Positions 51,067-64,000 of a stretch of DNA of 64,000 nucleotides are shown here, in pieces (the first letter of the stretch is position 1; every line of letters begins with the position of its first letter). This DNA comes from Candidatus Deferrimicrobiaceae bacterium (GTDB taxonomy: Bacteria; Desulfobacterota; Deferrimicrobia; Deferrimicrobiales; Deferrimicrobiaceae). Position numbers and translations under genes: made by a program. Location of the stretch: positions 1-64,000 of the forward strand of contig DASXVV010000008.1 of assembly GCA_036504035.1 (NCBI GenBank), given 5' to 3'. Under the pieces are notes generated by a model, which worked only from the letters and a program-made list of their open reading frames with translations, was not told where the DNA came from and did not search any database.

Positions 51067-51095
51067 TTGGTTGACATGGACCCGCGTGGTATCAT
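51067..51095 (+). promoter_or_regulatory. Candidate promoter of the envelope acyl-transfer operon
   Basis: TTGGTT (51067-51072) is followed after 17 nt by an extended -10 (TGGTATCAT, -10 hexamer at 51090-51095). The 50-nt stretch upstream is markedly AT-rich against a GC-rich background, as in an UP element. Transcription should start near 51102. Confidence 0.55.
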
Positions 51096-51179: not shown

Positions 51180-52610
51180 ATGCGAAAACAATCACACATA
51201 ATCCTGCTGCTCGTTGCGCTGATCGCGTTGGGAACCGGAGTTGCGTCTGCCGCAACCTACAAGGTCCGCAAGGGCGACAGCCTTGCGCGCATCGCCAAGC
51301 GGCAGCATGTCAGCGTCGGGGCGCTCCGCGAGACCAACGGGCTGGAGGGCGACGCCCTCAAGCCGGGCATGAAACTGACCCTTCCGTCCAAGGGCAAGGC
51401 CGCGAAGGTCGCCAAGGTCGACAAGGTCGACAAGGTCGAAAAGGCCGAAGCGCCCGAACCCGTCCCCGCGCCTGCCGCCGCGGCCGTACCGGTCCGTTCC
51501 GCACAGGTGTCGGCTTCGACCACCGAATGGGCGGGCTACCACACCGTCGCCAAGGGCGATACCCTCGCGACGATCGCCCACGCCAACGACCTTTCCCTGG
51601 AAGCGTTGAAAAAGCTCAACCCCGGGAAAAATGCCCGTCGGCTCAAGATCGGGATGCGGCTTCGCGTCAAGCCCGCCTCCGAGACGGCTGCTGCGGCTTC
51701 CCCGGCGCTTGCAAGGGCCGCCGTCGAGGCGCCCGTGGCGCACGCCTCGGGGAAAACGCCCGAAAAGATGGCAGCAAAGCCGCCCGTCCAGACCGCGGTC
51801 GCCGAGAAGCACCCGGCCGAACCGGTCGCGGCTCCGGTTGTCGCCTGCGATGTCGCGGCAGCCCCGGTCTACCACAAGGTGCGCAAGGGCGATACGCTCG
51901 CTTCGGTCGCTTCGAAATACGGCCTGTCGCTCAAGTCGCTCAAGCAGCTCAACCACGTCAAGAAGGCCAAAAAGCTCAAGCCCGGCAGCCAATTGCTGGT
52001 TCGCCGCGGCGGCGGGGGAGGGAGGGGGAGAGGCGGCTCCATCACCGCCGATCGCCGGCGCGAGCTCGAGAAGATCCTGCAGAACGAGGCCTCCATGACG
52101 GCCGCGGGGGCTGCCGCGGCGTCCGCAAAAGTCGCCGAGCTGGCGCCCGAGCTATTGTCCGCGGCCTCGGTCGACAACGGCATGTTGGGCCCCATCATCG
52201 AGGAAGACCAGCCGGTCGGCCTCACCGGCCGCGTCATCAAGATCGCCAAGCTCATGCTCGACCTGCCTTACCGGTTCGGCGGCACGTCGCTGACCGGCAT
52301 CGATTGCTCCGGATACGTCCAGAAGGTGTTCGGCTTCCTCAACATCCCCTTGCCGCGCAGCGCGCGCGAGCAGTTCGCCAAGGGAGAAAAGATCGAGAAA
52401 GAGGAGCTTGCGACCGGCGATCTGGTCTTCTTCAAGACCTACGCCCGCTTCCCGTCGCACGTCGGCATCTATCTGGGCGACAACAAGTTCATCCACGCCT
52501 CGTCGGGCGACCACAAGGTCAAGATCGACAGCCTCGACGCCCCCTACTTCCTGCGCCGCTACATCGGCGCACGCCGCCTGGTTCCCGACCAGAAGGACGA
52601 CGGAGAGTAG
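51180..52610 (+). CDS. LysM-repeat NlpC/P60 cell-wall peptidase
   Basis: The 476-residue exported protein has a signal peptide (about 1-25). Three LysM peptidoglycan-binding repeats lie at about 26-69, 119-163 and 230-274, separated by Lys/Ala/Pro-rich linkers. After a glycine/arginine patch (about 276-287) comes an NlpC/P60 domain (about 345-470) with C376 (GIDCSGYV), H427 (SHVGIYLG) and H439 (FIHASSG). It should cut peptide stems of peptidoglycan in the periplasm. It is the first gene of the operon that encodes the SGNH, MBOAT and carrier proteins. Confidence 0.92.
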   Translation: MRKQSHIILLLVALIALGTGVASAATYKVRKGDSLARIAKRQHVSVGALRETNGLEGDALKPGMKLTLPSKGKAAKVAKVDKVDKVEKAEAPEPVPAPAAAAVPVRSAQVSASTTEWAGYHTVAKGDTLATIAHANDLSLEALKKLNPGKNARRLKIGMRLRVKPASETAAAASPALARAAVEAPVAHASGKTPEKMAAKPPVQTAVAEKHPAEPVAAPVVACDVAAAPVYHKVRKGDTLASVASKYGLSLKSLKQLNHVKKAKKLKPGSQLLVRRGGGGGRGRGGSITADRRRELEKILQNEASMTAAGAAAASAKVAELAPELLSAASVDNGMLGPIIEEDQPVGLTGRVIKIAKLMLDLPYRFGGTSLTGIDCSGYVQKVFGFLNIPLPRSAREQFAKGEKIEKEELATGDLVFFKTYARFPSHVGIYLGDNKFIHASSGDHKVKIDSLDAPYFLRRYIGARRLVPDQKDDGE

Positions 52611-52616
52611 ATTGCC

Positions 52617-53141
52617 ATGACAACCAGGGTTCGCAAAGCCGTATCAGGGACGCTGCTGATCGGAACGCTGCTGTTGGTCCAGGGAGGCAGCCACCTCCCG
52701 GCGCCGGTGTTTCCCTCCGTTCCCTTTACCGCGCTGCCGCCGCCCGAGCTGCGCGAGCCGGCCGCGGCCGGGGCCGACACCGTTCTCCTTTGGGAGCTGG
52801 TCAAGCGCTACACCCTGAAATACCGGATTCCCGACCAGGCGGCCAAGATCTACAAGGTCATCTTCGAGGAAAGCCGCTTTACCGACGACGTGCGCTCCGA
52901 GGGGGGCGAGTACCTCGGCATGTGCCAGTTCAAGCCGAGCACCTTCTACCAGAACGTCCGCGAGATGAAGGAGCTGATGCTGCTCCCCCGGAATGTCCGC
53001 TTTTCCCCGTTCAATCCGGAGCATGCCATCCACGTCATGACCTGGATGTGGAGCCAGGGCTACAAGGACCACTGGGGCCCCACCCGTTTTGTCGAGCGTC
53101 AGGTCGACGACGATACCGGAGAAGGCGCATCGGGCCGGTGA
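52617..53141 (+). CDS. Exported lytic transglycosylase-like protein
   Basis: The 174-residue protein has a signal or anchor segment (about 9-24) and then a compact lysozyme-like domain: helix with the putative catalytic Glu (KVIFEESRFTDDVRSEG), then YLGMCQFKPSTFYQN and a C-terminal YKDHWGPTRFV. The order resembles SLT-type glycan strand-cleaving enzymes, but it is shorter and divergent, so activity is inferred. It begins 6 nt after the LysM gene and its end overlaps the next gene. Confidence 0.7.
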   Translation: MTTRVRKAVSGTLLIGTLLLVQGGSHLPAPVFPSVPFTALPPPELREPAAAGADTVLLWELVKRYTLKYRIPDQAAKIYKVIFEESRFTDDVRSEGGEYLGMCQFKPSTFYQNVREMKELMLLPRNVRFSPFNPEHAIHVMTWMWSQGYKDHWGPTRFVERQVDDDTGEGASGR

Positions 53142-54442
53142 AGGCGCTTTTCGCCCTCCTGGTGCTGGCGCTGCTGGTGCCTGCCCCCGGCTGTCCCGCT
53201 TCGGATTCCCCCCTGCGCATCCTCCATTTCGGCGATTCCCATGTGGCCTCCGATTCGCTGACTGCTTCCGCGCGCGAGACGCTCGCGGGCGCGTTCGGGG
53301 ACGGCGGGCCGGGCGTCATGATGCCTTGGGCGACGCCGAAGACATTCCGGCGCCCCGGCGTCGCCGCCGGAGCGACCGATGGCTGGCGGCGCCATGTGCC
53401 TTCTTCCGCCGGCGGGTTGGAGGATGCCGGGCTCTCGGGATGCTTCATCGAGGCGGAGGGCGTGGGAGAAGAGGCCTGGATCCGGGCCGACGCGGTTGTT
53501 TTCCGCGTGGCTTTCCTGCGGCAGCCGGGCGGCGGGACGATCGATTTCCTGGTCGACGGGAGGCTCGCGGGGCGCGAATCGACGGCATCGGCCGCCCCGG
53601 AGGCGTCCATCGCCCGCTTCCGCGCCGATGGCGGTGTCGCACCCCATCGGCTGACGATCCGGGCGGCGGGGGGCGGCAAGGTGCGGTTGCTCGGCGTCTC
53701 GGCCGAGAACGGCGCGCCCGGCGTCGTTTACAGCCCGCTCGGGGTGGTGGGAGCCCGGGCCGAGTCGCTGCTCAGGATTCGTCCCGAGATCTTCGACCGG
53801 CTGCTCGCGGCCGAATCGCCCGACCTGGTTCTCCTCGGCTTCGGAACCAACGAGGCCGCTTCCGCCGGATTCGACCCGGCGGCTTACGAAACGACGCTGG
53901 CGCGGGTCGTCGACCGGATCCGCTCCGCGGCGCCCCGGGCGGCGGTCATCCTCCTGACGCCCCCCGACCGGTCGGACCGGCAGCCGGCGACGGCTGCCCG
54001 CAGCCGGCAAGCGCTGTCGCAGGTCGTCGAGATCCAGCGGATCGTGGCCGCGCGGGCGGGTCTCCCGCTGATCGACCTCTTTTCGCTGATGGGAGGCGCC
54101 GGGACCGCCGACCGGTGGAGGTTGGCTACGCCGCCGCTGGCGCAGACGGACGGGACGCACTTCACGAAAGCGGGCTATGCGCAGCTCGGCCGCATCGTCG
54201 GCCGGGAGCTCTTGTCGCTGCGCGCGGAGGATCGGGTCGCCTGGCCGCCGCTGACCGCGAAGGCGCCCGTGCCGCCGCCGGCCGCGAAGCGCATTCTCTA
54301 TTTCGTCAAACCGGACGGCTCGCTGCTCCTCACCGATGACCCGAAGCGCGGCGTCGAGGAGGGCGGGCGCCCGATGAGCGACGCCGAGTTCCGGAAGTTC
54401 GTCAATGCCGGCTTGCCGGAAGGGGAGGCGGAGACGCCATGA
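53138..54442 (+). CDS. Exported SGNH hydrolase/acyltransferase 1
   Basis: The 434-residue protein has a signal peptide (possibly lipoprotein, VPAPGC). The SGNH motifs are block I S34 in FGDSHVASD, block III N238 in GFGTNEA, and block V D338/H341 in DGTHFTKAGY. Between blocks I and III an inserted beta domain of about 170 residues resembles the carbohydrate-binding insertion of AlgX/Ape1-like enzymes. The C-terminal 45 residues add a small module (RILYFVKPDGSLLLTDDP). It should add or remove ester-linked acyl groups on an envelope glycan. The start is GTG 53138, overlapping the previous stop (GTGA). Confidence 0.82.
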   Translation: MKALFALLVLALLVPAPGCPASDSPLRILHFGDSHVASDSLTASARETLAGAFGDGGPGVMMPWATPKTFRRPGVAAGATDGWRRHVPSSAGGLEDAGLSGCFIEAEGVGEEAWIRADAVVFRVAFLRQPGGGTIDFLVDGRLAGRESTASAAPEASIARFRADGGVAPHRLTIRAAGGGKVRLLGVSAENGAPGVVYSPLGVVGARAESLLRIRPEIFDRLLAAESPDLVLLGFGTNEAASAGFDPAAYETTLARVVDRIRSAAPRAAVILLTPPDRSDRQPATAARSRQALSQVVEIQRIVAARAGLPLIDLFSLMGGAGTADRWRLATPPLAQTDGTHFTKAGYAQLGRIVGRELLSLRAEDRVAWPPLTAKAPVPPPAAKRILYFVKPDGSLLLTDDPKRGVEEGGRPMSDAEFRKFVNAGLPEGEAETP

Positions 54443-55851
54443 TCTTTTCCCGGGCGACGATTGCCCGCTTTTCGCTTCTGCTGTGCCTGCTGCTTCCGGT
54501 CCTCTGGATGGATGCCGCCGGTGCGGTCAAGAAAAGGAAGCCGGCCAGGCCGCCCCATGGGGCGGTCCACCCGAAGAAGGGGAAGGCGAATCGCCCTGCA
54601 CGCCCCGCGCATCCTGCGCGTCCAAAGCGTTCGGCCAGGCCCTCCCGCGTTCGGCGGACAGCGCCGCGCCCGAAGCCGGCGATCGCCTTGGTCCCGCTCG
54701 ATGCGGAGAAGATCCCCCCCGTGGATCTCGAGATGCCCCGGGGGGCGCTCGACCCGTTCTTCCGCGACCTGTCCGCCCTCGAGACGCCGGCGGGAGACAA
54801 CGGGGCGGTGCGCGTGGTCCGCATCCTTCACCTGGGGGATTCCCACGTGGCGGCCGACTACTGGACCGGCGAAATCCGACGACGGCTCCAGGAGCGGTTC
54901 GGCGATGGAGGGGCGGGCATCGTCATGCCCGGACGCCCCTGGAAATATTTCCGCCACGCGCAGGCCAAGTCGCTCGACGGCGACGGATGGCACACGTCCG
55001 GGCTGAAGGACGCGCCCGCGGACGGTGTGCTCGGCCTGTCGGGCGTGGCGATGGCCCCGCGCGGGAACGCGCCCGCCTCGGTGCTGGCGCCCGGGCGCCG
55101 CTTCAACGTGTTGCTGGCCTCCGAGACCGACCGCGCCGCCGTCCGGCTCTTTCTGGACGGCGTCCCGTTCGACAACGTTTCAATCCGGACGCGCTGGCTC
55201 AACTCGGGGGGGAGCGATATCGCCCTCGTGACGATCTCCAACCGGGAACCGCTGCCCGACGCCCATGGAAAACTGTCCGTGGTGGCGGCCCCCGACAGCG
55301 GTATCCGCCTCCTGGGAGCCGAGTTCTTCAGCGGCCGCAGCGGGGTCGTGGTGGACACGCTGGGGCTGAACGGCGCGCGGATGACCGCCCTCGACAAGTG
55401 GTCCCCCCGGATGCGTCAGCAGCTTCTCCAGGAAGCGAAGCCGTCGCTCATCATCGTGTCGTACGGAACCAACGAGATCGCCACACCGCATTTCACGTTC
55501 GAGGCGTTCCGGGCCGACTGCGTCCGCGTGCTGCGGGCGCTTCGGGAGGATTCCGGGGGGACGGCCGTCCTCGTGACCGGGCCGATCGACCGGGCGATCC
55601 GGAAGAAGAGGGCGCGGATATCGATGGCCGACGCCGAGCGGCCGGTCGTCCGGGCGCTGCGGGAGGCGGCGGCCGAGACGGGCTGCGCCTTCTGGGACGC
55701 GCAGCAGGCGATGGGCGGGGAGGGGGCGATCCTGTCCTGGATGCGGGCGGGGCTCGCCCGGAACGACGGCGTCCACCTGACCCAGCAAGGCTACGAGCTT
55801 CAAGGGAAGATGCTGTTCGACCGCCTGATGTCGGCCTACGCGGCTCGATGA
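54439..55851 (+). CDS. Exported SGNH hydrolase/acyltransferase 2
   Basis: The 470-residue protein has a signal/anchor (about 7-28) and a very basic Pro/Arg/Lys-rich linker (about 31-80) that could contact acidic polymers or the wall. An SGNH domain follows with S135 (HLGDSHVAAD), N345 (SYGTNEIAT) and D443/H446 (NDGVHLTQQGY). As in the first SGNH protein, a beta insertion separates blocks I and III. ATG 54439 overlaps the previous gene by four bases (ATGA), and its own stop overlaps the MBOAT start. Confidence 0.85.
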   Translation: MIFSRATIARFSLLLCLLLPVLWMDAAGAVKKRKPARPPHGAVHPKKGKANRPARPAHPARPKRSARPSRVRRTAPRPKPAIALVPLDAEKIPPVDLEMPRGALDPFFRDLSALETPAGDNGAVRVVRILHLGDSHVAADYWTGEIRRRLQERFGDGGAGIVMPGRPWKYFRHAQAKSLDGDGWHTSGLKDAPADGVLGLSGVAMAPRGNAPASVLAPGRRFNVLLASETDRAAVRLFLDGVPFDNVSIRTRWLNSGGSDIALVTISNREPLPDAHGKLSVVAAPDSGIRLLGAEFFSGRSGVVVDTLGLNGARMTALDKWSPRMRQQLLQEAKPSLIIVSYGTNEIATPHFTFEAFRADCVRVLRALREDSGGTAVLVTGPIDRAIRKKRARISMADAERPVVRALREAAAETGCAFWDAQQAMGGEGAILSWMRAGLARNDGVHLTQQGYELQGKMLFDRLMSAYAAR

Positions 55852-57275
55852 GCCCGACCGGCACCGTCTACCTCGCGTTCCTGCTGATCGCCGTCGCGGC
55901 CTACCGGCTGACCGGGGGCGTGCGCCGCTTCCACCTGGCGACGATCCTGCTCCTGTCGTTCCTCTTCTACGCGTCCTGGAATCCCGTCTACTGCGTCCCG
56001 CTGGCCGTCACGGCGATGCTCGACTTCAACACCGCCCGGTACGTGTCCCGCCGCCGTGGCCGCCGCGCGGCCCGGGTTGCCCTGGCCGCGGACATCGCCG
56101 CCAACCTGTGCATTCTCGCGGCCTTCAAGTATTTCAACTTCATGGCCGACAATGCGGTCGCGCTGGCGTCGGCCATCGGCTATTCCCTGCCGCCCGTGCC
56201 GATCCGCGTCGTGTTCGGGGTCGGCATCTCCTTCTACACCTTCCAGTCGATGAGCTATGTCATCGACGTCCACCGGGGCGACGCCGAGCCCGCCCGCAGC
56301 TTCGCCGACTACTTGGCGTTCGTCGCCTTCTTCCCGACGCTTCTCGCCGGGCCGATCACGCGCGCCTCCGTCCTGCTGCCGCAGCTCGAGCGGCCGGCCC
56401 CCCCCATCACGGCCGAGCAAGGGGGGCGCGCCCTCTTCCTCATCGCGCTTGGCTTCATCAAGAAAATCGTCGTGGCCGACTACCTGGCCGTCAACCTGGT
56501 CAACCGGGTCTTCGAGCTGCCCGGCATGTACTCGTCCGCCGAGCTGCTCGCCGGCATCTACGGCTACGCGGCCCAGATCTACTGCGACTTCTCCGGGTAC
56601 AGCGACATCGCGATCGGCTCGGCGCTCCTGCTCGGGATCGGGCTGAAGGATAATTTCAACGCGCCCTACCGGTCCAGGGACCTGCCGGAGTTCTGGCGCC
56701 GTTGGCATATCTCGCTCTCGACCTGGCTTCGCGACTACCTGTTCTTCTCCCTTCCGAAGAACCGTTCGTCGAAATGGGCGCCTTACTTCAACACGTTGGT
56801 CACCTTTGCACTGGGGGGGCTCTGGCACGGCGCCTCCTGGACCTTCCTCGCCTGGGGGGCGCTGCACGGCACCGGCCTCGCCGTGGCGCGCTTCTTCGAC
56901 GTGCGCCGCCCGCGCGGCCGGAACGCGAAGCCGGTTCCCCGCTGGCGGCAGTTCGCGGGCGTGTTCGTCACTTTCCATTTCGTCTGCCTGACGTGGGTCT
57001 TCTTCCGGTGCGATTCGGTCGACCAGGCCTTCGGGGTGCTCCAGGGGCTGGGCCGGTTGAGCGGAAACGCAGCCAACATCACCTGGCCGATCGCCGGGCT
57101 GACGCTGGCGGGGATCGTGCTCCAGTGGCTTCCCGAGACCGTGTTTCCCCGCCTCCAGGCACGATTCATCGCCCTTCCATCGCCCGTGCAGTGCGCGCTG
57201 CTGGCGGGAACGGCGGTGGCGGTCGCACGCGTCTCGGGCTCCTCCGTCTCGCAATTCATCTACTTCAACTTCTAG
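55848..57275 (+). CDS. MBOAT-family membrane acyltransferase
   Basis: The 475-residue polytopic membrane protein belongs to the AlgI/DltB/PatA branch of MBOAT enzymes. About ten to eleven helices are visible. The conserved blocks are FFPTLLAGPI, YCDFSGYSDIAIG, FWRRWHISLSTWLRDY (H287) and GLWHGASWTFLAWG (H327, the catalytic His). Such proteins take an acyl group from a cytoplasmic donor and present it to the periplasmic side for esterification of a glycan. With an adjacent carrier protein the donor is probably acyl-ACP rather than acyl-CoA (inference). It sits between SGNH genes 2 and 3. Confidence 0.93.
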   Translation: MSPTGTVYLAFLLIAVAAYRLTGGVRRFHLATILLLSFLFYASWNPVYCVPLAVTAMLDFNTARYVSRRRGRRAARVALAADIAANLCILAAFKYFNFMADNAVALASAIGYSLPPVPIRVVFGVGISFYTFQSMSYVIDVHRGDAEPARSFADYLAFVAFFPTLLAGPITRASVLLPQLERPAPPITAEQGGRALFLIALGFIKKIVVADYLAVNLVNRVFELPGMYSSAELLAGIYGYAAQIYCDFSGYSDIAIGSALLLGIGLKDNFNAPYRSRDLPEFWRRWHISLSTWLRDYLFFSLPKNRSSKWAPYFNTLVTFALGGLWHGASWTFLAWGALHGTGLAVARFFDVRRPRGRNAKPVPRWRQFAGVFVTFHFVCLTWVFFRCDSVDQAFGVLQGLGRLSGNAANITWPIAGLTLAGIVLQWLPETVFPRLQARFIALPSPVQCALLAGTAVAVARVSGSSVSQFIYFNF

Positions 57276-57286
57276 GGACGCCAAAG

Positions 57287-58789
57287 TTGACGAAGATTCC
57301 GAAAAGCTGGGTGACCGTCGTCCTGCTCCTCGCATGCGCCGCGGTCCCCTCCCTGGTCCCCGGGCTGTCCAGGTACCGGGTTATCGACCCGATGCGCCTG
57401 CTCGAGACGCTGGCCGCCCCGTGGCGTGGAAACCCGGTCGCGAAGGTGTTCCGGAGCCGTGAAGCGCCGCGCCCGGCGAGGCCCTCGGCTGCCGACAATG
57501 CCGCATCCACCCGGATTGCGCCGCTCCCGACGCCAACCCTTCCGGCCGTCCCGTCGGGTCTCGGCGACGACTGGCCCTCCGGCGACGAGGAGAACGCGTA
57601 TGCCGCCGCCGTCACCGGCGAGGTCGCGATCGAGGACTACGGAAGCGTGCTGCCGGGGTTCTTCGCACGGCTCGGCCGCACCGAGCGGAAGGCGCCGGGC
57701 GCGATCACGCGGATCAGCCATTTCGGCGACAGCCCCGTAACGGGCGACCTGATTGCAGGCGACGCGCGCGCCCGGTTACAAGCCCGTTTCGGCGACGCCG
57801 GCCACGGATGGATCTTCGTCGATCGTCCTTGGGAATGGTACAACCACCGCGGCGTGCGGCTTTCCGGGGGCGGCTGGAGCGCCCGCTCGGCGATGATCCC
57901 TCCGGGGAAGCCCGGCAACGACGGGTTCGGCGGCGTCAGCTTTTCCGCATCCGGACCGGGCGCGCAAAGCCGGATCGCGACCGCCGCACGCGGTCGCGGG
58001 TCCGCCGTCTCCCGCTTCGACATCCATTTCCAGGCCGGATCGCGGGGAGGAACGCTGCTCGCGTCGGTCGACGGGGAGGCGGCGACCGAGATCCCGACCG
58101 CGGCACAACCGGGGGAGGGCGGGCTGGTCGTCCATTCGCTCGCCGTGCCCGATGGGGGGCACGAGCTGAGGTTGCGCCCGAAGGGGGACGGTCCGGTCCG
58201 GTTGTTCGGCGTCGTGCTCGAGCGGAATCTTCCGGGCGTCGTCTACGACACCGTGGGCGCCAACGGCGCGACGATCCGCCACCTGGCGCGTTTCGACCGC
58301 AAGGGCTGGATGGACGCCCTGCGGCGGCGCGGCCCCGACCTCGTCATCCTGAACTACGGGACCAACGAGAGCGGATACAACGTGCTGTCGTATCCCGCCT
58401 ACGTCCGGGACTATCGCGAGGTGATCCGCCGGATCCGCGAGGCGCTTCCGGGCTGCGCGATCCTGGTCATGGCGCCGATGGACCGCGGCGTGCGCGGCTC
58501 GGGAGGGGGGATCGAGACGGCAGCTTCCATTCCGCGGCTGGTGGCCGCCCAGCGGCTCATCGCGCGCTCGGAGAAGGTCGCCTTCTTCGATACCTATGCC
58601 GCGATGGGCGGAGCCGGGACGATGGCCGACTGGTACGAGCGCTCGCCCCGCCTCGTCTCCGGCGACTTCACGCACCCGACGCACCAGGGGGCGTCGATCG
58701 TGGGAGACCTGCTTGTCGACGCGCTTCTGAAAGGTTACGCTAGTCGAACGCAGTTCGAATCTCCCGGCCCGGAAGGAGCAACTCCATGA
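57287..58789 (+). CDS. Exported SGNH hydrolase/acyltransferase 3
   Basis: The 500-residue protein has an N-terminal anchor (about 8-26), a low-complexity linker (about 55-100) and an SGNH domain. Block I reads FGDSPVTGD (S149), with Pro where the other two paralogs have His. Block III is NYGTNES (N360) and block V is D460/H463 (SGDFTHPTHQG). The triad is complete and a beta insertion is again present. The start is TTG 57287, 11 nt after MBOAT, the only visible gap after the LysM-transglycosylase junction. Its stop overlaps the carrier protein start (ATGA). Confidence 0.82.
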   Translation: MTKIPKSWVTVVLLLACAAVPSLVPGLSRYRVIDPMRLLETLAAPWRGNPVAKVFRSREAPRPARPSAADNAASTRIAPLPTPTLPAVPSGLGDDWPSGDEENAYAAAVTGEVAIEDYGSVLPGFFARLGRTERKAPGAITRISHFGDSPVTGDLIAGDARARLQARFGDAGHGWIFVDRPWEWYNHRGVRLSGGGWSARSAMIPPGKPGNDGFGGVSFSASGPGAQSRIATAARGRGSAVSRFDIHFQAGSRGGTLLASVDGEAATEIPTAAQPGEGGLVVHSLAVPDGGHELRLRPKGDGPVRLFGVVLERNLPGVVYDTVGANGATIRHLARFDRKGWMDALRRRGPDLVILNYGTNESGYNVLSYPAYVRDYREVIRRIREALPGCAILVMAPMDRGVRGSGGGIETAASIPRLVAAQRLIARSEKVAFFDTYAAMGGAGTMADWYERSPRLVSGDFTHPTHQGASIVGDLLVDALLKGYASRTQFESPGPEGATP

Positions 58790-59025
58790 GCACGAACGAG
58801 CAGGTCCGCAGCGCGTTGGAGGCGTTTGCCAGAGCGCCGGTCCCGGCGGACGACGACGCGTCGCTCTTCGACGCCGGCGTCCTCGATTCCTTCGGGCTGA
58901 TGGAATTCATCGGGGAGCTCGAGCAGCAGTTCGGCGTCAAGGTTCCCGACGAGGAGCTCACGCCCCGGAAGTTCGAGACGGTCGCCAAGGTCGCGGCTTG
59001 GTTCGACGCCCGGAGGCGCGCCTGA
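58786..59025 (+). CDS. Acyl carrier protein
   Basis: The 79-residue carrier has the phosphopantetheine site S35 in GVLDSFGLMEFI and the usual helical pattern. The DSFGLME context and the MBOAT/SGNH neighbours recall DltC-type carriers; housekeeping AcpP is more acidic and reads DSLDTVE. No ligase of the DltA type is present. It presumably carries an acyl group for the adjacent MBOAT protein. ATG 58786 follows GGAAGGAG and overlaps the previous stop. Its own stop overlaps the next start (TGATG). Confidence 0.88.
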   Translation: MSTNEQVRSALEAFARAPVPADDDASLFDAGVLDSFGLMEFIGELEQQFGVKVPDEELTPRKFETVAKVAAWFDARRRA

Positions 59026-59960
59026 TGCCCTCGATCGCCGGGTTCGGGCACGACCTGCCCGAGGGCGTCATCGACAACGCGGCGCTGGCGGCCGAGCTGG
59101 GCGTGACGGAAGACTGGATTTTCCAGGTCTCGGGCATCCGGACGCGGCGATGCCTCGCCCCCGGCGAGACGGCCTGCGACCTGGCGCACCGGGCCGCGCT
59201 GGCGTGCCTGGCCGACGCCGGCATGACTCCGGCCGACCTGGGCGGCATCGTGGTCGGCACCGGCACGCCGCCCAGGCAGTTCCCGGGCGTCTCCGCCGAT
59301 CTTCAGAAGCGGATGTCCGTGCCCGGGATCCCGGCGTTCGACATCCACCTGGCCAGCGTCGGCGGTTTTTTTGCGCTGGCGACGGCTTCGGCGCTTTGCG
59401 CGCAATACGGCCCGATCCTGGCCGTCGGCGCAGAGGCGATGACGACGGTGATGGCGCGCGCCCCGCGTGTCAAGGAGACGGCCATCCTGTTCGGCGACGG
59501 GGCGGGCGCCGCCCTCGTTTGCCCCGGGGATGGCCCGATCATGATCGAGGATATCCGGATCGCGAGCGACGGCACCTTCGCCGACTCGCTGAGCATGGAC
59601 TTCGGCGAGACGCTCCGCATGGACGGGCGCACCGTCATCCTGCAAGCCAACCGCAAGTTGAAGGCCTCGATATCGGAGCTGCTGTCGCGCAACGGCCTGG
59701 CGGTCGAAGATGTCGGCCTCTTCCTGTTCCACCAGGCGAACCTCAACCTGCTCAGGCAGGTGGGAAACGCGCTCAAGATCGATCCCGAAAAGGTCTTCGT
59801 CGATATCGACAAATACGGGAACACTTCGGCCGCGTCGCTGCTGATCGCGATGTCCGAGGCGAAAGCGGAAGGCCGTTTATCTCCCGGCACCCGCGTCGTC
59901 CTGGCGGCGTTCGGCGCCGGCATGGGGTGGGGCGCCGCGCTCCTTTCCTGCCGGGCCTGA
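59025..59960 (+). CDS. KAS III (FabH)-like enzyme with Ser in place of the active-site Cys
   Basis: This thiolase-fold protein of 311 residues matches FabH in length and motifs: GIRTRRCLAPGE, GTGTPPRQFPG, FLFHQANLNLL (H236) and KYGNTSAASLL (N266). The nucleophile position (C112 in E. coli FabH, within AACxGF) reads HLASVGGF, giving S111. Ser variants of this fold (for example DpsC) act in acyl transfer or starter priming. It could load an acyl group from CoA onto the carrier encoded just before it (inference). It is the last gene of the operon. ATG 59025 overlaps the carrier stop by one base; a frame from 58998 is too long. Confidence 0.88.
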   Translation: MPSIAGFGHDLPEGVIDNAALAAELGVTEDWIFQVSGIRTRRCLAPGETACDLAHRAALACLADAGMTPADLGGIVVGTGTPPRQFPGVSADLQKRMSVPGIPAFDIHLASVGGFFALATASALCAQYGPILAVGAEAMTTVMARAPRVKETAILFGDGAGAALVCPGDGPIMIEDIRIASDGTFADSLSMDFGETLRMDGRTVILQANRKLKASISELLSRNGLAVEDVGLFLFHQANLNLLRQVGNALKIDPEKVFVDIDKYGNTSAASLLIAMSEAKAEGRLSPGTRVVLAAFGAGMGWGAALLSCRA

Positions 59961-59979: not shown

Positions 59980-60027
59980 GAAACGACAACGGCCACCCGG
60001 ATCGCTCCGGGTGGCCGTTGTCGTTTC
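59980..60027. terminator. Bidirectional terminator, perfect 22-bp stem
   Basis: GAAACGACAACGGCCACC and the following four bases (CGGA) pair perfectly with the right arm around a TCGC loop. It ends the acyl-transfer operon and the convergent chemoreceptor gene. Confidence 0.88.
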
Positions 60028-60049: not shown

Positions 60050-61678
60050 TCAGAAGCCGTTCATGTCGTCGTTTTCAAGCGGGAAGACATCTTCGGGATT
60101 GTTTTTGGCCGGCGCTTTCGCCACCGGCTTCCGGGGGGCGGTCCGGTTGGCCGCGACCCGGCCGGACGGGGAGGAAAGCGCGGCCGGGCGGGAGGATGTC
60201 CGCCGAGCGGTGGCCCTTGGGGCGGCCGGCGGGGGACTTCCGGCTTCGCCGCCGCGCACCAGGTCGCGGATCTGCCGCACGATGTCCTGCATCGCGATCG
60301 ATTGGGCGGACAGTTCCTCGGTCGAGGAGGCGATCTCCTCGGCATTCGCCGCCGTCTGCTGGGTGACCTTGTCCATCTGGGAGATGGCGCTGCCCACCTC
60401 GGTGATGCCGCGCGCCTGCTCGGAGGAAGCGGCCGAGATTTCCCCGACCAGCTCGTTGACCTTCTTGACCGAGTTCGCCACTTCCTGGAAATCCATGTTG
60501 GTACGCTCGACGAGCGCCGTGCCGTCCTTGATCTTCTGGACGGTGGCCTCGATCAGGTCGGAAGTGCTCTTCGCGGCGACCGCCGACCGCTGCGCGAGGT
60601 TGCGAACCTCGTCGGCGACGACCGCGAATCCGGCGCCCGCCTCGCCCGCGCGCGCCGCCTCGACGGCTGCGTTGAGCGCCAGCAGGTTGGTCTGGAAGGC
60701 GATCTCGTCGATCGTCTTGATGATCTTTCCGACCTCCTGCCCCATCGACGAGATCTCGGCCATCGAGCCGACCATCGACCCCATCGAGGCGTTGGCCTTG
60801 TCGACGTTGCCGCCCGCCACCTCGGCCAGCGACCGCGCCTGGCCGGCGTTCTCGGCGTTCTGATGCGTCATGGCGGACATCTCTTCCATCGCGGAGGAGG
60901 ATTCCTCGAGCGATGCGGCCGATTCGGAAGCCCCCTCGGCAAGCGCCTGCGCCGCGGACGAGAGCTGGGTCGATGCGGAGGAAACCTGGCCGGCGCCCTC
61001 GTCGAGCGAATTGACGGCACGGTTGAGTGACGAGGAGATCGAGCGCGACAGGTAGAATCCGAGGGCGAGGGCGGCGCTGACGCAGAGGAGCACCAGGACG
61101 ACCATGGAGGTGCGCGCCGCGTCGACCGATTTCGTATTGGCTGCATCGGTCTCCTTTGCGGCTTTTTCCTTGATGCGCACCATCTTGTCGATGCTGTCCT
61201 GGACGATTAATCGTTGCTTGTCACCCTCGTTTTCGATCAGAGCAAACGCTTCGGCGTTCTTCCCCTCCGTGAGGAGGGCGTGGGTCTGATCGATCAGGCC
61301 GCTGTACGCGGTCAGCGACGTCACCGCATCCTTGAAGAGGACTTTCCCCTCGTCGGTGATGAGCGTTTTTTCGAAGGACGCCATGAGCTCGTCGACCGAC
61401 TTCCGCCGTTCCTTGATCTTATCGTTGAGGATCTTATCCCGGCTGCCGGCATCCTTGGCCATGATCATCTCAAGAACGTTGCAGCGCATGCGCTGGAAGT
61501 GGGTGGAAGCATCTCCGACTTCCCCCAGGGGAACCGTGATCCTTTGAAAAAGGTAATCCTGCGCTTTTTCGGACTTGTTCAGATTGACGACCCCGATGAT
61601 CCCGACGAACCCGCAAATGAGCGCGACGAGGACGAATGCGGCAATCAGCTTGCCGCCCAAAGACAGGTTCCGGAACAT
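60050..61678 (-). CDS. Methyl-accepting chemotaxis protein
   Basis: The 542-residue protein has two membrane helices (about 11-31 and 191-212) around a periplasmic four-helix-bundle sensor (4HB type). A long cytoplasmic coiled coil follows, with the signalling tip DEIAFQTNLLALNAAVEAAR. The HAMP region is short or atypical. The C-terminus is Pro/Ala/Arg-rich and lacks the usual receptor pentapeptide. The ligand is unknown. ATG 61678 is chosen for GGAGG and because a sigma-28 promoter places the transcript start below an upstream in-frame ATG at 61741. Confidence 0.93.
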   Translation of the reverse strand: MFRNLSLGGKLIAAFVLVALICGFVGIIGVVNLNKSEKAQDYLFQRITVPLGEVGDASTHFQRMRCNVLEMIMAKDAGSRDKILNDKIKERRKSVDELMASFEKTLITDEGKVLFKDAVTSLTAYSGLIDQTHALLTEGKNAEAFALIENEGDKQRLIVQDSIDKMVRIKEKAAKETDAANTKSVDAARTSMVVLVLLCVSAALALGFYLSRSISSSLNRAVNSLDEGAGQVSSASTQLSSAAQALAEGASESAASLEESSSAMEEMSAMTHQNAENAGQARSLAEVAGGNVDKANASMGSMVGSMAEISSMGQEVGKIIKTIDEIAFQTNLLALNAAVEAARAGEAGAGFAVVADEVRNLAQRSAVAAKSTSDLIEATVQKIKDGTALVERTNMDFQEVANSVKKVNELVGEISAASSEQARGITEVGSAISQMDKVTQQTAANAEEIASSTEELSAQSIAMQDIVRQIRDLVRGGEAGSPPPAAPRATARRTSSRPAALSSPSGRVAANRTAPRKPVAKAPAKNNPEDVFPLENDDMNGF

Positions 61679-61716
61679 GGGTGAGATCCTCCAACGTAAG
61701 GAATTTATCCATATCT

Positions 61717-61743
61717 TTATCGGCAGAAACGCGCAAAACATTA
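61717..61743 (-). promoter_or_regulatory. Sigma-28 (FliA) promoter of the chemoreceptor gene
   Basis: On the minus strand TAATGTTT (61736-61743), an 11-nt spacer and GCCGATAA (61717-61724) match the FliA consensus (TAAAGTTT-N11-GCCGATAA) at all but one position. The transcript should start near 61710, about 32 nt before the ATG. Confidence 0.82.
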
Positions 61744-61825
61744 GACGGAAATTGCAGCGACAGCGGCTTGCCTTTGCACCGACTCCCGGCGAGAATGCGT
61801 CCTACAGCGTGAGGAGGAAGAGACG

Positions 61826-62578
61826 ATGGCCAGGTTCGACAGCGATTACGTTCCCGCATCCGCGATGGGCATCTTTGCGCATCCCGACGACGCCGAGTTC
61901 ACGGTCGCGGGTACGCTTGCGCGGTGGGCCGCGGCCGGGTGCGAGGTCACGCTGGTGCTGCTGACCAGCGGGAACGTCGGCACCCACGACGTCACGCTCA
62001 CACGTGAGAAGCTCGCGGAGATCCGGGAGCGCGAGGAACGCGCCTCGGCCGGGAAGCTCGGCGTCAAGAACATCGTGTTCCTCGGGCACGACGACTGCGA
62101 GTTGCAGCCGACGATGGCGATCCGCCGCGAGCTGGTCCGGGAGATCCGCCGATTCCGGCCCGAGGTCGTCCTCTGCAACGATCCGCAGTCGCTCTTCATC
62201 GAGGAGCACTACGTCAACCATCCCGACCACCGGGCCGCTGGAACCGTCGCGATCGACGCCGTCTTCCCGTGCGTCGAGATGGAGCTTCTTTGGCCCGAGC
62301 TGGGGCCGGTCCACAAGGTGCACGCCCTCTACGTCAGCTCGACGCAGGCCCCTAACCGCTGGATCGACGTAACCGCCACGCTCGGGTTGAAGATTGCGGC
62401 GCTCAACGAGCACCGGAGCCAGTTGGGCGAACGTGATATCTCCGACATGATCCGGGAATGGGCGATCGCGACCGCCGCCGCGGGACGCTGGGATGCGGAA
62501 CCGGGCGCGCGCCCGAAATACGCCGAGGCGTTTCGCGTGATGAAACTTTTCAGGGAAGAAAAGGCGGGGGGCGGCTAA
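61826..62578 (+). CDS. PIG-L/LmbE-family deacetylase
   Basis: The 250-residue zinc-dependent de-N-acetylase has the metal motif AHPDDAE (19-25), LTSGNVGTHDV, VFLGHDD and the second metal motif NHPDHRAAG. The family removes acetyl from N-acetylglucosaminyl compounds (for example in bacillithiol or mycothiol synthesis) or other glycans; the substrate is not evident. The start follows GAGGAGGAAGAG. The stop overlaps that of the convergent CapA gene. Confidence 0.88.
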   Translation: MARFDSDYVPASAMGIFAHPDDAEFTVAGTLARWAAAGCEVTLVLLTSGNVGTHDVTLTREKLAEIREREERASAGKLGVKNIVFLGHDDCELQPTMAIRRELVREIRRFRPEVVLCNDPQSLFIEEHYVNHPDHRAAGTVAIDAVFPCVEMELLWPELGPVHKVHALYVSSTQAPNRWIDVTATLGLKIAALNEHRSQLGERDISDMIREWAIATAAAGRWDAEPGARPKYAEAFRVMKLFREEKAGGG

Positions 62579-63753
62579 CGGATCGAGGCGGCCGGCGCCT
62601 TCGCGACATTCTGCGGCAGCGGGCAAAGCGTGCCGTCGTCCCGGATGACGGCGCCGGTCGTCGGAAGGTCTTTGGCAGACAGGCGCCGAATGAGGCGCGT
62701 CGCCCTGCCTGCCGGGTCCGGAAGCGGGATGCCCCGGCCCGATAGCGTCATCGGCATGATTCTCCCCGACAGGAAATTCCCCGTTTCGGGGTCGAGGTCG
62801 GCCCGCAGGGCGTAGCCGAGGCCGCTGGCCCCCTTCAAGTTGAATCGCCCGAAGCCGAGGAAGTTGCCGAGCGAGTAAGCGATCAGCTTCCCCCGGTAGA
62901 TCTCGATGGCGCGCGGGACGTGGGGGCCATGGCCGAGCACCGCGGCGGCGCCTGCGTCGATGGCCGCGTGCGCGAACCGTTCGACGTCGCCTCTCTTTTC
63001 CCCCGCGAACATTTCCATCTCGCCCGTCAGGTGGAGCGCATCCTTGCCTTCGGCGCCGCCGTGGAACGAGACGAGGACGAGGTCGTTCTCGGAGACCGCC
63101 TTCCGGATGCGCGCCTCGGCTGCCGCGATGTTCAGGATCGAGGCGCTGTAGGGGGAGGAGTGCGAGTAGGAGAAGCCGAGGATGGCCACCCGCTTGCCGC
63201 CGACGTCGATGCGGGCGACGTGATCCCCGCCGACCGGCTGGATGCCGAGTCCCGAGAGGACGGCCACCGTGTTGTCGATCCCTTCCCGGCCGAAGTCGAA
63301 CGCGTGGTTGTTCGCGATGTTCAGTGCGTTGAAGCCGGCGTCCTTCAGGTAGCGGCCATAGCGGGTCGGGGTGCGGAAGGCGAAGCACAGCTTCGGGTTG
63401 GGCGCCTTGTCGCACTTGTTTGCGACGCCGTTGTCGAGCAGCGGCCCCTCGAGGTTCCCAAACACAACGTCCCGGTCGCGCAACGCCCGGGCCGTGCGAC
63501 GGAAGAGGTCGCGACCGTCGTCGGGGGGCAGCATCCCTTCGGGCCATGCCGTCCCCATCATGATGTCGCCGACGGCGACGATGCCGATGACGGAAGGCGA
63601 CGGCGCCTCCGCCGGACGGCCGGTGATCGCGGCGATGCTCCAGCCGTTGCCCCAGGCGCCGGCGACATCCGCAAGGATCGCGGTCGCCAGCAGGACAATG
63701 AGAAAACTCGCGACGGGGAGGGAAGGGCGTTTCGAGGTGGATCGGGACGGCAT
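62575..63753 (-). CDS. CapA-type calcineurin-like metallophosphatase-fold protein
   Basis: The 392-residue protein has an N-terminal membrane segment (about 14-33) and a CapA/PgsA domain: IVAVGDIMMG, VFGNLEGPL, NALNIANNHAFDFG, VLVSFHGGAE and VLGHGPHVPRAIE. In Bacillus CapA/PgsA belongs to poly-gamma-glutamate synthesis or export; elsewhere members act on capsule or as membrane hydrolases. No capB/capC genes are next to it, so that role is not supported here. ATG 63753 is chosen for AGGA 7 nt before it; the longer frame to 63960 enters the ssrA promoter region. Confidence 0.85.
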   Translation of the reverse strand: MPSRSTSKRPSLPVASFLIVLLATAILADVAGAWGNGWSIAAITGRPAEAPSPSVIGIVAVGDIMMGTAWPEGMLPPDDGRDLFRRTARALRDRDVVFGNLEGPLLDNGVANKCDKAPNPKLCFAFRTPTRYGRYLKDAGFNALNIANNHAFDFGREGIDNTVAVLSGLGIQPVGGDHVARIDVGGKRVAILGFSYSHSSPYSASILNIAAAEARIRKAVSENDLVLVSFHGGAEGKDALHLTGEMEMFAGEKRGDVERFAHAAIDAGAAAVLGHGPHVPRAIEIYRGKLIAYSLGNFLGFGRFNLKGASGLGYALRADLDPETGNFLSGRIMPMTLSGRGIPLPDPAGRATRLIRRLSAKDLPTTGAVIRDDGTLCPLPQNVAKAPAASIR

Positions 63754-63852
63754 GGATATCCTGTCCGGCGCCCGGTATCGGAGAGGGCGACCGCATCTTT
63801 CAGTATACGTGAACCGGCGTCCGGCAGCGACCGCGGGGGCGGGGGAGATTGA

Positions 63853-63861
63853 TGGTATAAT
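63853..63861 (+). promoter_or_regulatory. Extended -10 promoter of ssrA
   Basis: TGGTATAAT, a consensus -10 with the upstream TG, lies 14 nt before the first G of the tmRNA. No clear -35 box is seen. Confidence 0.6.
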
Positions 63862-63875
63862 AGAAAAGTCATCAC

Positions 63876-64000
63876 GGGGGCGAAACGGATTCGACGTGGA
63901 CGTCGATGCTCCTGGGTTGCGTGCCGAGGCCCCGTTGTCCTCGTTAAAAGCGGGAACCAATAGTCGCCAACGACTATAGCTACGCTCTCGCGGCTTAGGC
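63876..64000 (+). ncRNA. ssrA: tmRNA (5' part, cut by window edge)
   Basis: The sequence begins GGGGGCGAAACGGATTCGAC, the conserved 5' end of tmRNA that pairs with the 3' tRNA-like half (outside the window). The tag reading frame starts at GCC 63966 and reads ANDYSYALAA, then TAG (63996-63998). The ALAA end is the usual signal for ClpXP/ClpAP degradation. The rescue partner SmpB is encoded at 50459-50956. Confidence 0.95.

Follow-up and report, generated by a model that had tools for sequence, protein, structure and literature searches.

Gene content of the locus

A group of eight same-strand genes was analysed in a genome of Candidatus Deferrimicrobiaceae bacterium (phylum Desulfobacterota; GCA_036504035.1). 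The window, i.e. the whole stretch of DNA that was analysed, comprised 64,000 nucleotides of contig DASXVV010000008.1. The genes encode two putative wall-cleaving enzymes, three SGNH proteins (SGNH1 to SGNH3), a membrane-bound O-acyltransferase (MBOAT), a carrier protein and an enzyme related to β-ketoacyl-acyl carrier protein synthase III (KAS III) (Table 1). An initial annotation of the DNA had named the eight genes and read them as a self-contained system for O-acylation of the cell envelope. The gene identities were borne out by domain profile matches. The same was true for the tight spacing of the genes: the seven junctions measured 6, -4, -4, -4, +11, -4 and -1 bases, five of them being overlaps of 4 or 1 bases.

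Table 1. Genes of the operon and the adjoining inverted repeat, with positions in the window
Feature	Position	Strand	Evidence
Exported LysM(x3)-NlpC/P60 peptidoglycan hydrolase, 476 aa	51180..52610	+	LysM 8.2e-39, NLPC_P60 2.2e-30
Exported SLT lytic-transglycosylase-like protein, 174 aa	52617..53141	+	PF01464 24.3 bits, cut-off 21.3
SGNH1, Ape1-like, GTG start	53138..54442	+	GDSL_2 3.2e-20; PDB 4k3u
SGNH2, Ape1-like, signal peptide	54439..55851	+	PDB 4k3u 2.8e-27
MBOAT, 475 aa	55848..57275	+	PF03062 101 bits
SGNH3, membrane-anchored, Ape1 fold, TTG start	57287..58789	+	Predicted model and fold comparison
DltC-like carrier protein, 79 aa	58786..59025	+	PF00550 5.1e-12
Serine KAS III-like enzyme, 311 aa	59025..59960	+	ACP_syn_III_C 5.5e-31
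22-bp inverted repeat between convergent genes	59980..60027	.	Perfect stem; fold -57.3 kcal/mol for 85 nt, z -7.15

Distribution and phylogeny of the gene set

The gene set is not a chance grouping, since it recurs in two phyla. MBOAT, SGNH, carrier and Ser-type KAS III genes, whose co-occurrence the initial annotation had proposed as a check, were found together in Acidobacteria and in each of the three genomes that represent the genus. Both sister genomes of the genus (L032, L033) hold the operon, including the LysM-NlpC/P60 gene, without SGNH1. SGNH1 is therefore not essential to the set. A KAS III scan of 84,980 species genomes gave one match in the genus and seven acidobacterial loci at 60-64% identity, followed by a drop to 40% or less. 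Carrier and KAS III were adjacent in every locus long enough to tell. A close MBOAT (55-61% identity) was present in all six acidobacterial genomes behind the seven KAS III loci. One of these was a fragment at a contig end, preceded by SGNH1 and SGNH2.

The arrangement of the acidobacterial cassettes varied. In G587, SLT-SGNH1-SGNH2-MBOAT-SGNH3 faces KAS III-carrier, and the SLT relative directly upstream of SGNH1 reached 100 bits. G569 has the same facing arrangement without SLT. The order was MBOAT-SGNH3-SGNH-carrier-KAS III in G514, G613 and G550, and SGNH-MBOAT-SGNH3-carrier-KAS III in G474 and G486, where the KAS III is of the Cys type. MBOAT-SGNH3 was thus accompanied by SGNH1 and/or SGNH2 and by carrier-KAS III, which stood in the operon, convergent to it or on another contig. 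Two genomes, G598 and G700, had no carrier-KAS III beside the MBOAT; a targeted search then found a carrier-Ser-KAS III pair elsewhere in both, as predicted. The initial annotation had named a lack of conservation in relatives as grounds for refutation. Its reading withstood this test: the set recurs in the genus and in Acidobacteria, with a varying order of genes, at times divided between two loci and, in the genus relatives, lacking SGNH1.

Co-occurrence was quantified in 297 acidobacterial genomes. All seven genomes with a KAS III at E<=1e-70 had an MBOAT within 6 kb, and six of the seven had an MBOAT of the cassette clade (p 1.3e-8). With weaker relatives counted, KAS III and MBOAT overlapped in 12 of 13 cases, with a p of 2e-19 that is partly inflated because the search for weaker KAS IIIs was directed at genomes already known to have an MBOAT. 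This bias does not affect the subset of six out of seven. The cassette KAS IIIs formed one clade (100/99). So did the cassette MBOATs (100/99), whose main subgroups matched the KAS III tree. In both trees the genus was nested inside acidobacterial diversity, suggesting horizontal transfer. Base composition was rejected as a sign of transfer, the G+C content of 68.7% in the operon and 66.0% in the window not being informative.

A wider spread within the window's own phylum was rejected: no MBOAT relatives were detectable in other sampled members of the family, and close ones were found only in the genus. For SGNH3, the 395 genomes of the phylum yielded the genus and one distant match. Within about 7 kb of the MBOAT in 38 other MBOAT loci of the phylum, some of them short, no gene for KAS III, LysM, SLT or an Ape1-like SGNH was found, and one carrier-like gene was present. 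An Ape1-like SGNH lies near an MBOAT in G039 of the same phylum (L236:6498-10426); neither a carrier nor a KAS III was detected in this stretch of 16 kb. In G419, an acidobacterial sister lineage (L230:7101-13112), an MBOAT with the motif FIYFQF, two Ape1-like SGNHs and an SLT-LysM gene stand in a row, and neither a carrier nor a KAS III gene adjoins them. The G419 MBOAT took a position immediately basal to the cassette clade (88/77 support), and the locus may represent a carrier-free ancestor.

The MBOAT and SGNH proteins

No second MBOAT was found in the genome (3.17 Mb). By sequence it was nearest to DltB (TIGR04091, 192.2 bits, below the cut-off of 375; PDB 6bug and 8jem, about 1e-34). DltB was also the top fold match of the predicted model (pLDDT 85.8), with Z 28.6 over residues 1-396. 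Past residue 400 the model predicts extra helices, ending in FIYFNF. This C-terminus corresponds to the FXYXXF acyl-shuttle motif of PatA and DltX, with Tyr472 as the shuttle tyrosine. F470, Y472 and F475 were invariant in 21 aligned sequences, as was the catalytic His327. PatA auto-acetylates the tyrosine of this motif from acetyl-CoA without a carrier, DltX is a separate peptide bearing the same motif, and DltB receives its acyl group from a carrier (PMC12148441).

The Ser/Asp/His triads of the SGNH proteins are intact, each being invariant in its alignment of relatives. They comprise Ser34, Asp338 and His341 in SGNH1, which has a lipoprotein-like N-terminus, Ser135, Asp443 and His446 in SGNH2, and Ser149, Asp460 and His463 in SGNH3, which starts with a membrane helix. 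SGNH1 and SGNH2 proteins carry the motif GDSH. SGNH3 carries GDSP, found in 18 of 19 aligned SGNH3 sequences, the remaining one having GDSV. The top solved-structure match of all three was the peptidoglycan O-acetylesterase Ape1 (4k3u; SGNH1 1e-19, SGNH2 2.8e-27, SGNH3 2.3e-21). An AlphaFold model of SGNH3 (pLDDT 78.3) matched Ape1 with Z 39.0 over 347 residues, including a beta-rich insert within the SGNH domain, and PatB (8tlb) with Z 15.6 over 189 residues. In fold comparison the insert resembled carbohydrate-binding modules such as CBM35.

Against the PatB family (DUF459, PF04311; cut-off 27.2 bits), SGNH1 scored 12.7 and SGNH2 14.0 bits and SGNH3 gave no match. The Pfam model had no match in the whole genome either, control genomes being positive. 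No operon SGNH matched DltD at E 0.1. PatB and DltD were therefore ruled out as SGNH partners within the operon. The AlgX/AlgJ family (PF16822) had no match in operon or genome, but control genomes gave none either.

The KAS III-like enzyme and the carrier

The catalytic residues of the KAS III-like enzyme are Ser111, His236 and Asn266, with serine where cysteine is expected. Serine occupied the catalytic position in 18 of 21 cassette KAS IIIs, compared with cysteine in 30 of 30 other relatives, while the His and Asn were present in all 21. The two most distant MBOAT-adjacent cassette KAS IIIs (L225:11475-12476 and L226:11357-12358) keep the cysteine, in ACCN rather than ACxGF, so the serine was gained, or given up again, in the course of the cassette lineage. 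An arginine invariant in all 30 FabH-type relatives was lost in all 21 cassette enzymes. In our reading of the alignment it corresponds to Arg36 of Escherichia coli FabH. Arg36 lies by the CoA path in FabH, and its loss may therefore mean that the donor is other than free CoA. The enzyme scored 220.8 bits against the FabH model TIGR00747, below the cut-off of 292.1. Two further KAS IIIs, both with cysteine, are encoded elsewhere in the genome. No literature on the biochemistry of a Cys-to-Ser change in FabH was found.

The carrier was nearest to DltC, which gave the highest score among the carrier models listed (NF003464, 43.7 bits, cut-off 68). Its 4'-phosphopantetheine site is the serine in LDSF, and a DSF-type site was present in every cassette carrier. 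The transfer of acyl groups to a carrier by a KAS III fold has precedents, e.g. ChlB3 (PMC9573744). A malonyl-acyl carrier protein decarboxylase activity feeding the envelope is reported for another protein, YiiD (PMC8666670).

Flanking signals and neighbouring genes

The promoter claimed in front of the operon is weak and was not supported. TTGACA (51071-51076) and TATCAT (51090-51095) are spaced by only 13 bases, and the promoter scan contained no sigma-70 site at that place. Where a strong terminator had been claimed behind the operon, a perfect 22-bp stem was found, probably a two-way terminator. It did not appear in the list of the terminator scan because it has no long T-run and lies between convergent genes. 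No Rfam family matched in the leader or region. Further 3' (60053-63960), a convergent methyl-accepting chemotaxis gene, a PIG-L deacetylase gene and a capsule-type gene (PGA_cap) were present, with no link to the operon seen.

Proposed pathway and alternative explanations

Conservation of the genes, matching gene trees and co-occurrence across genomes give good support to an MBOAT-SGNH acylation system that has a carrier and a KAS III of its own. The initial annotation was supported in part; it had missed the shuttle tyrosine motif of the MBOAT. We consider it probable that the operon encodes a self-contained, carrier-fed MBOAT-SGNH pathway for the acylation of hydroxyl groups on a polymer of the envelope, probably peptidoglycan, in which KAS III charges the carrier and SGNH3 is the transferase. 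The acyl group, the donor, the acceptor and the roles of the individual SGNH proteins are inferred. The KAS III would charge the dedicated carrier, on its phosphopantetheine arm, with a short acyl group that is most likely acetyl. The group would come from a thioester donor via Ser111 or arise by decarboxylation of a malonyl-carrier. By homology, it would then pass from the carrier through the membrane funnel of the MBOAT and, with catalysis by His327, reach the enzyme's own Tyr472. Membrane-anchored SGNH3 would accept the acyl group on Ser149 and place it on the polymer. Its removal would fall to SGNH2, and to SGNH1 where present. The NlpC/P60 and lytic transglycosylase proteins encoded next to them would remodel the wall under control of acylation.

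Two parts of this scheme differ from the initial annotation. It had three SGNH proteins placing or trimming the acyl group. Their triads are intact. All three are most like Ape1, as opposed to PatB, AlgJ, AlgX or DltD, and SGNH1 is not essential to the set. The proposed division into SGNH3 as transferase and SGNH2 and SGNH1 as de-acylases is based on the GDSP motif and membrane helix of SGNH3, as opposed to GDSH in the other two. For the proposed loading of the carrier by KAS III, transacylation is only one of two routes, since the enzyme keeps the His and Asn of condensing and decarboxylating enzymes.

Several observations weigh against the proposed pathway. The retained His and Asn would fit condensation too. 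PatB is absent, so an Ape1-fold protein would need to serve as transferase, a role not described for it. Most acidobacterial cassettes lack peptidoglycan hydrolase genes. One exception to the set was also found: in G511 (L218:2123-8057) a carrier-Ser-KAS III pair lies near an MBOAT from outside the clade, with a CBS-nucleotidyltransferase gene between and no SGNH.

Peptidoglycan is favoured as the target, on indirect support, because the SGNH proteins are Ape1-like, because SLT/LysM genes adjoin the set in the genus, G587 and the sister lineage G419, and because in Neisseria the lytic transglycosylase LtgA stimulates Ape1 and is itself stimulated by it (PMC7083599). The initial annotation had likewise taken the wall-cleaving enzymes as pointers to peptidoglycan. 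The same carrier-fed machinery might act on another exported polymer such as capsule, exopolysaccharide or O-antigen, the wall hydrolases being mere neighbours. The missing SLT/LysM neighbours of most acidobacterial copies, the resemblance of the SGNH insert to carbohydrate-binding modules and the action of MBOAT-SGNH pairs on alginate, cellulose and secondary wall polymers (PMC12148441) agree with this. We regard it as unlikely, though not negligible, given the full-length similarity of the SGNHs to Ape1, the adjoining SLT or SLT-LysM genes and the fact that no recurrent glycan-synthesis genes were seen beside the cassette.

The position of the carrier-KAS III pair away from the MBOAT in several genomes could also indicate a separate small pathway, of the kind that makes a fatty-acid or polyketide-like starter, with the MBOAT using acyl-CoA directly. 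PatA takes acetyl-CoA without a carrier (PMC12148441), and the condensing His/Asn are kept in the KAS III. Co-occurrence persisted where the genes were unlinked, however, and two genomes that lacked the pair beside the MBOAT had it elsewhere, as predicted. No other biosynthetic gene was seen recurring with the pair, and the carrier is DltC-like. A separate pathway is accordingly improbable. Very improbable is a usual Pat-type acetylation cluster that carries additional genes and an ordinary FabH, even though the enzyme exceeds the cut-off of the NCBIfam KAS3 subfamily model (252.6 vs 249) and MBOAT and Ape1-like genes recall the Pat cluster. An ordinary FabH was rejected on the replacement of Cys by Ser, the loss of the arginine and the separate clade; in addition, two other Cys KAS IIIs are encoded in the genome and PatB is absent.

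Comparison with known systems

Described MBOAT-SGNH systems draw the acyl group from one of two sources, acyl-CoA in the case of PatA and a carrier loaded by a ligase in the case of Dlt. The set breaks this split by combining a fused PatA-type motif with a carrier. It possibly represents a second carrier-fed route of wall decoration. In this tentative reading, KAS III takes the place of the adenylating ligase of Dlt, acting as a transacylase or as a decarboxylase of the malonyl-carrier. The MBOAT that it supplies would be of the PatA type, and an SGNH of the Ape1 fold would have turned transferase; the acyl group may then be other than acetyl. In the literature searched, no tie of the KAS III class to envelope decoration was found. 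A published account of such a cassette was not found in the open-access literature searched, which omits most subscription journals. Three questions become testable with the set: the ability of KAS III folds to load carriers for the modification of walls, the ability of a protein of the Ape1 fold to act as transferase, and the presence of unusual acyl esters in the walls of these bacteria, most of which are uncultured.

With Pat, the operon shares an MBOAT with conserved His and C-terminal FXYXXF, Ape1-fold SGNHs and a likely peptidoglycan target. The Ape1-type esterase of Pat appears to be present, judged by sequence and predicted fold. Pat has PatB and draws on acyl-CoA without a carrier, whereas the operon lacks PatB and has a dedicated carrier, a KAS III-like enzyme and up to three Ape1-like proteins. 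Shared with Dlt are a DltB-like MBOAT, presumably fed by a DltC-like carrier, an acyl-Tyr shuttle and a putative SGNH transferase, with the DltB and DltC models both below cut-off. In Dlt, however, the shuttle tyrosine is on separate DltX, the carrier is loaded by the ligase DltA and the SGNH protein is DltD. In the operon, the tyrosine is fused to the MBOAT, a serine KAS III is present with no DltA match within the operon, and the SGNHs are Ape1-like.

ChlB3, CerJ and DpsC are likewise KAS III folds working with a carrier, and DpsC also has Ser for Cys. Unlike the operon, they belong to antibiotic biosynthesis, and their triads are Cys-His-Asp in ChlB3 and CerJ and Ser-His-His in DpsC (PMC9573744), compared with Ser-His-Asn here. 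The alginate system AlgI/AlgJ/AlgX has an MBOAT and periplasmic SGNHs in common with the operon, which adds carrier and KAS III and in which no AlgJ/AlgX-family SGNH was found; MBOAT-SGNH pathways other than Dlt are without a carrier protein according to a 2025 paper (PMC12148441). What looks new here is the combination of a fused shuttle motif, a carrier, a KAS III in place of the ligase and SGNH proteins of the Ape1 fold only.

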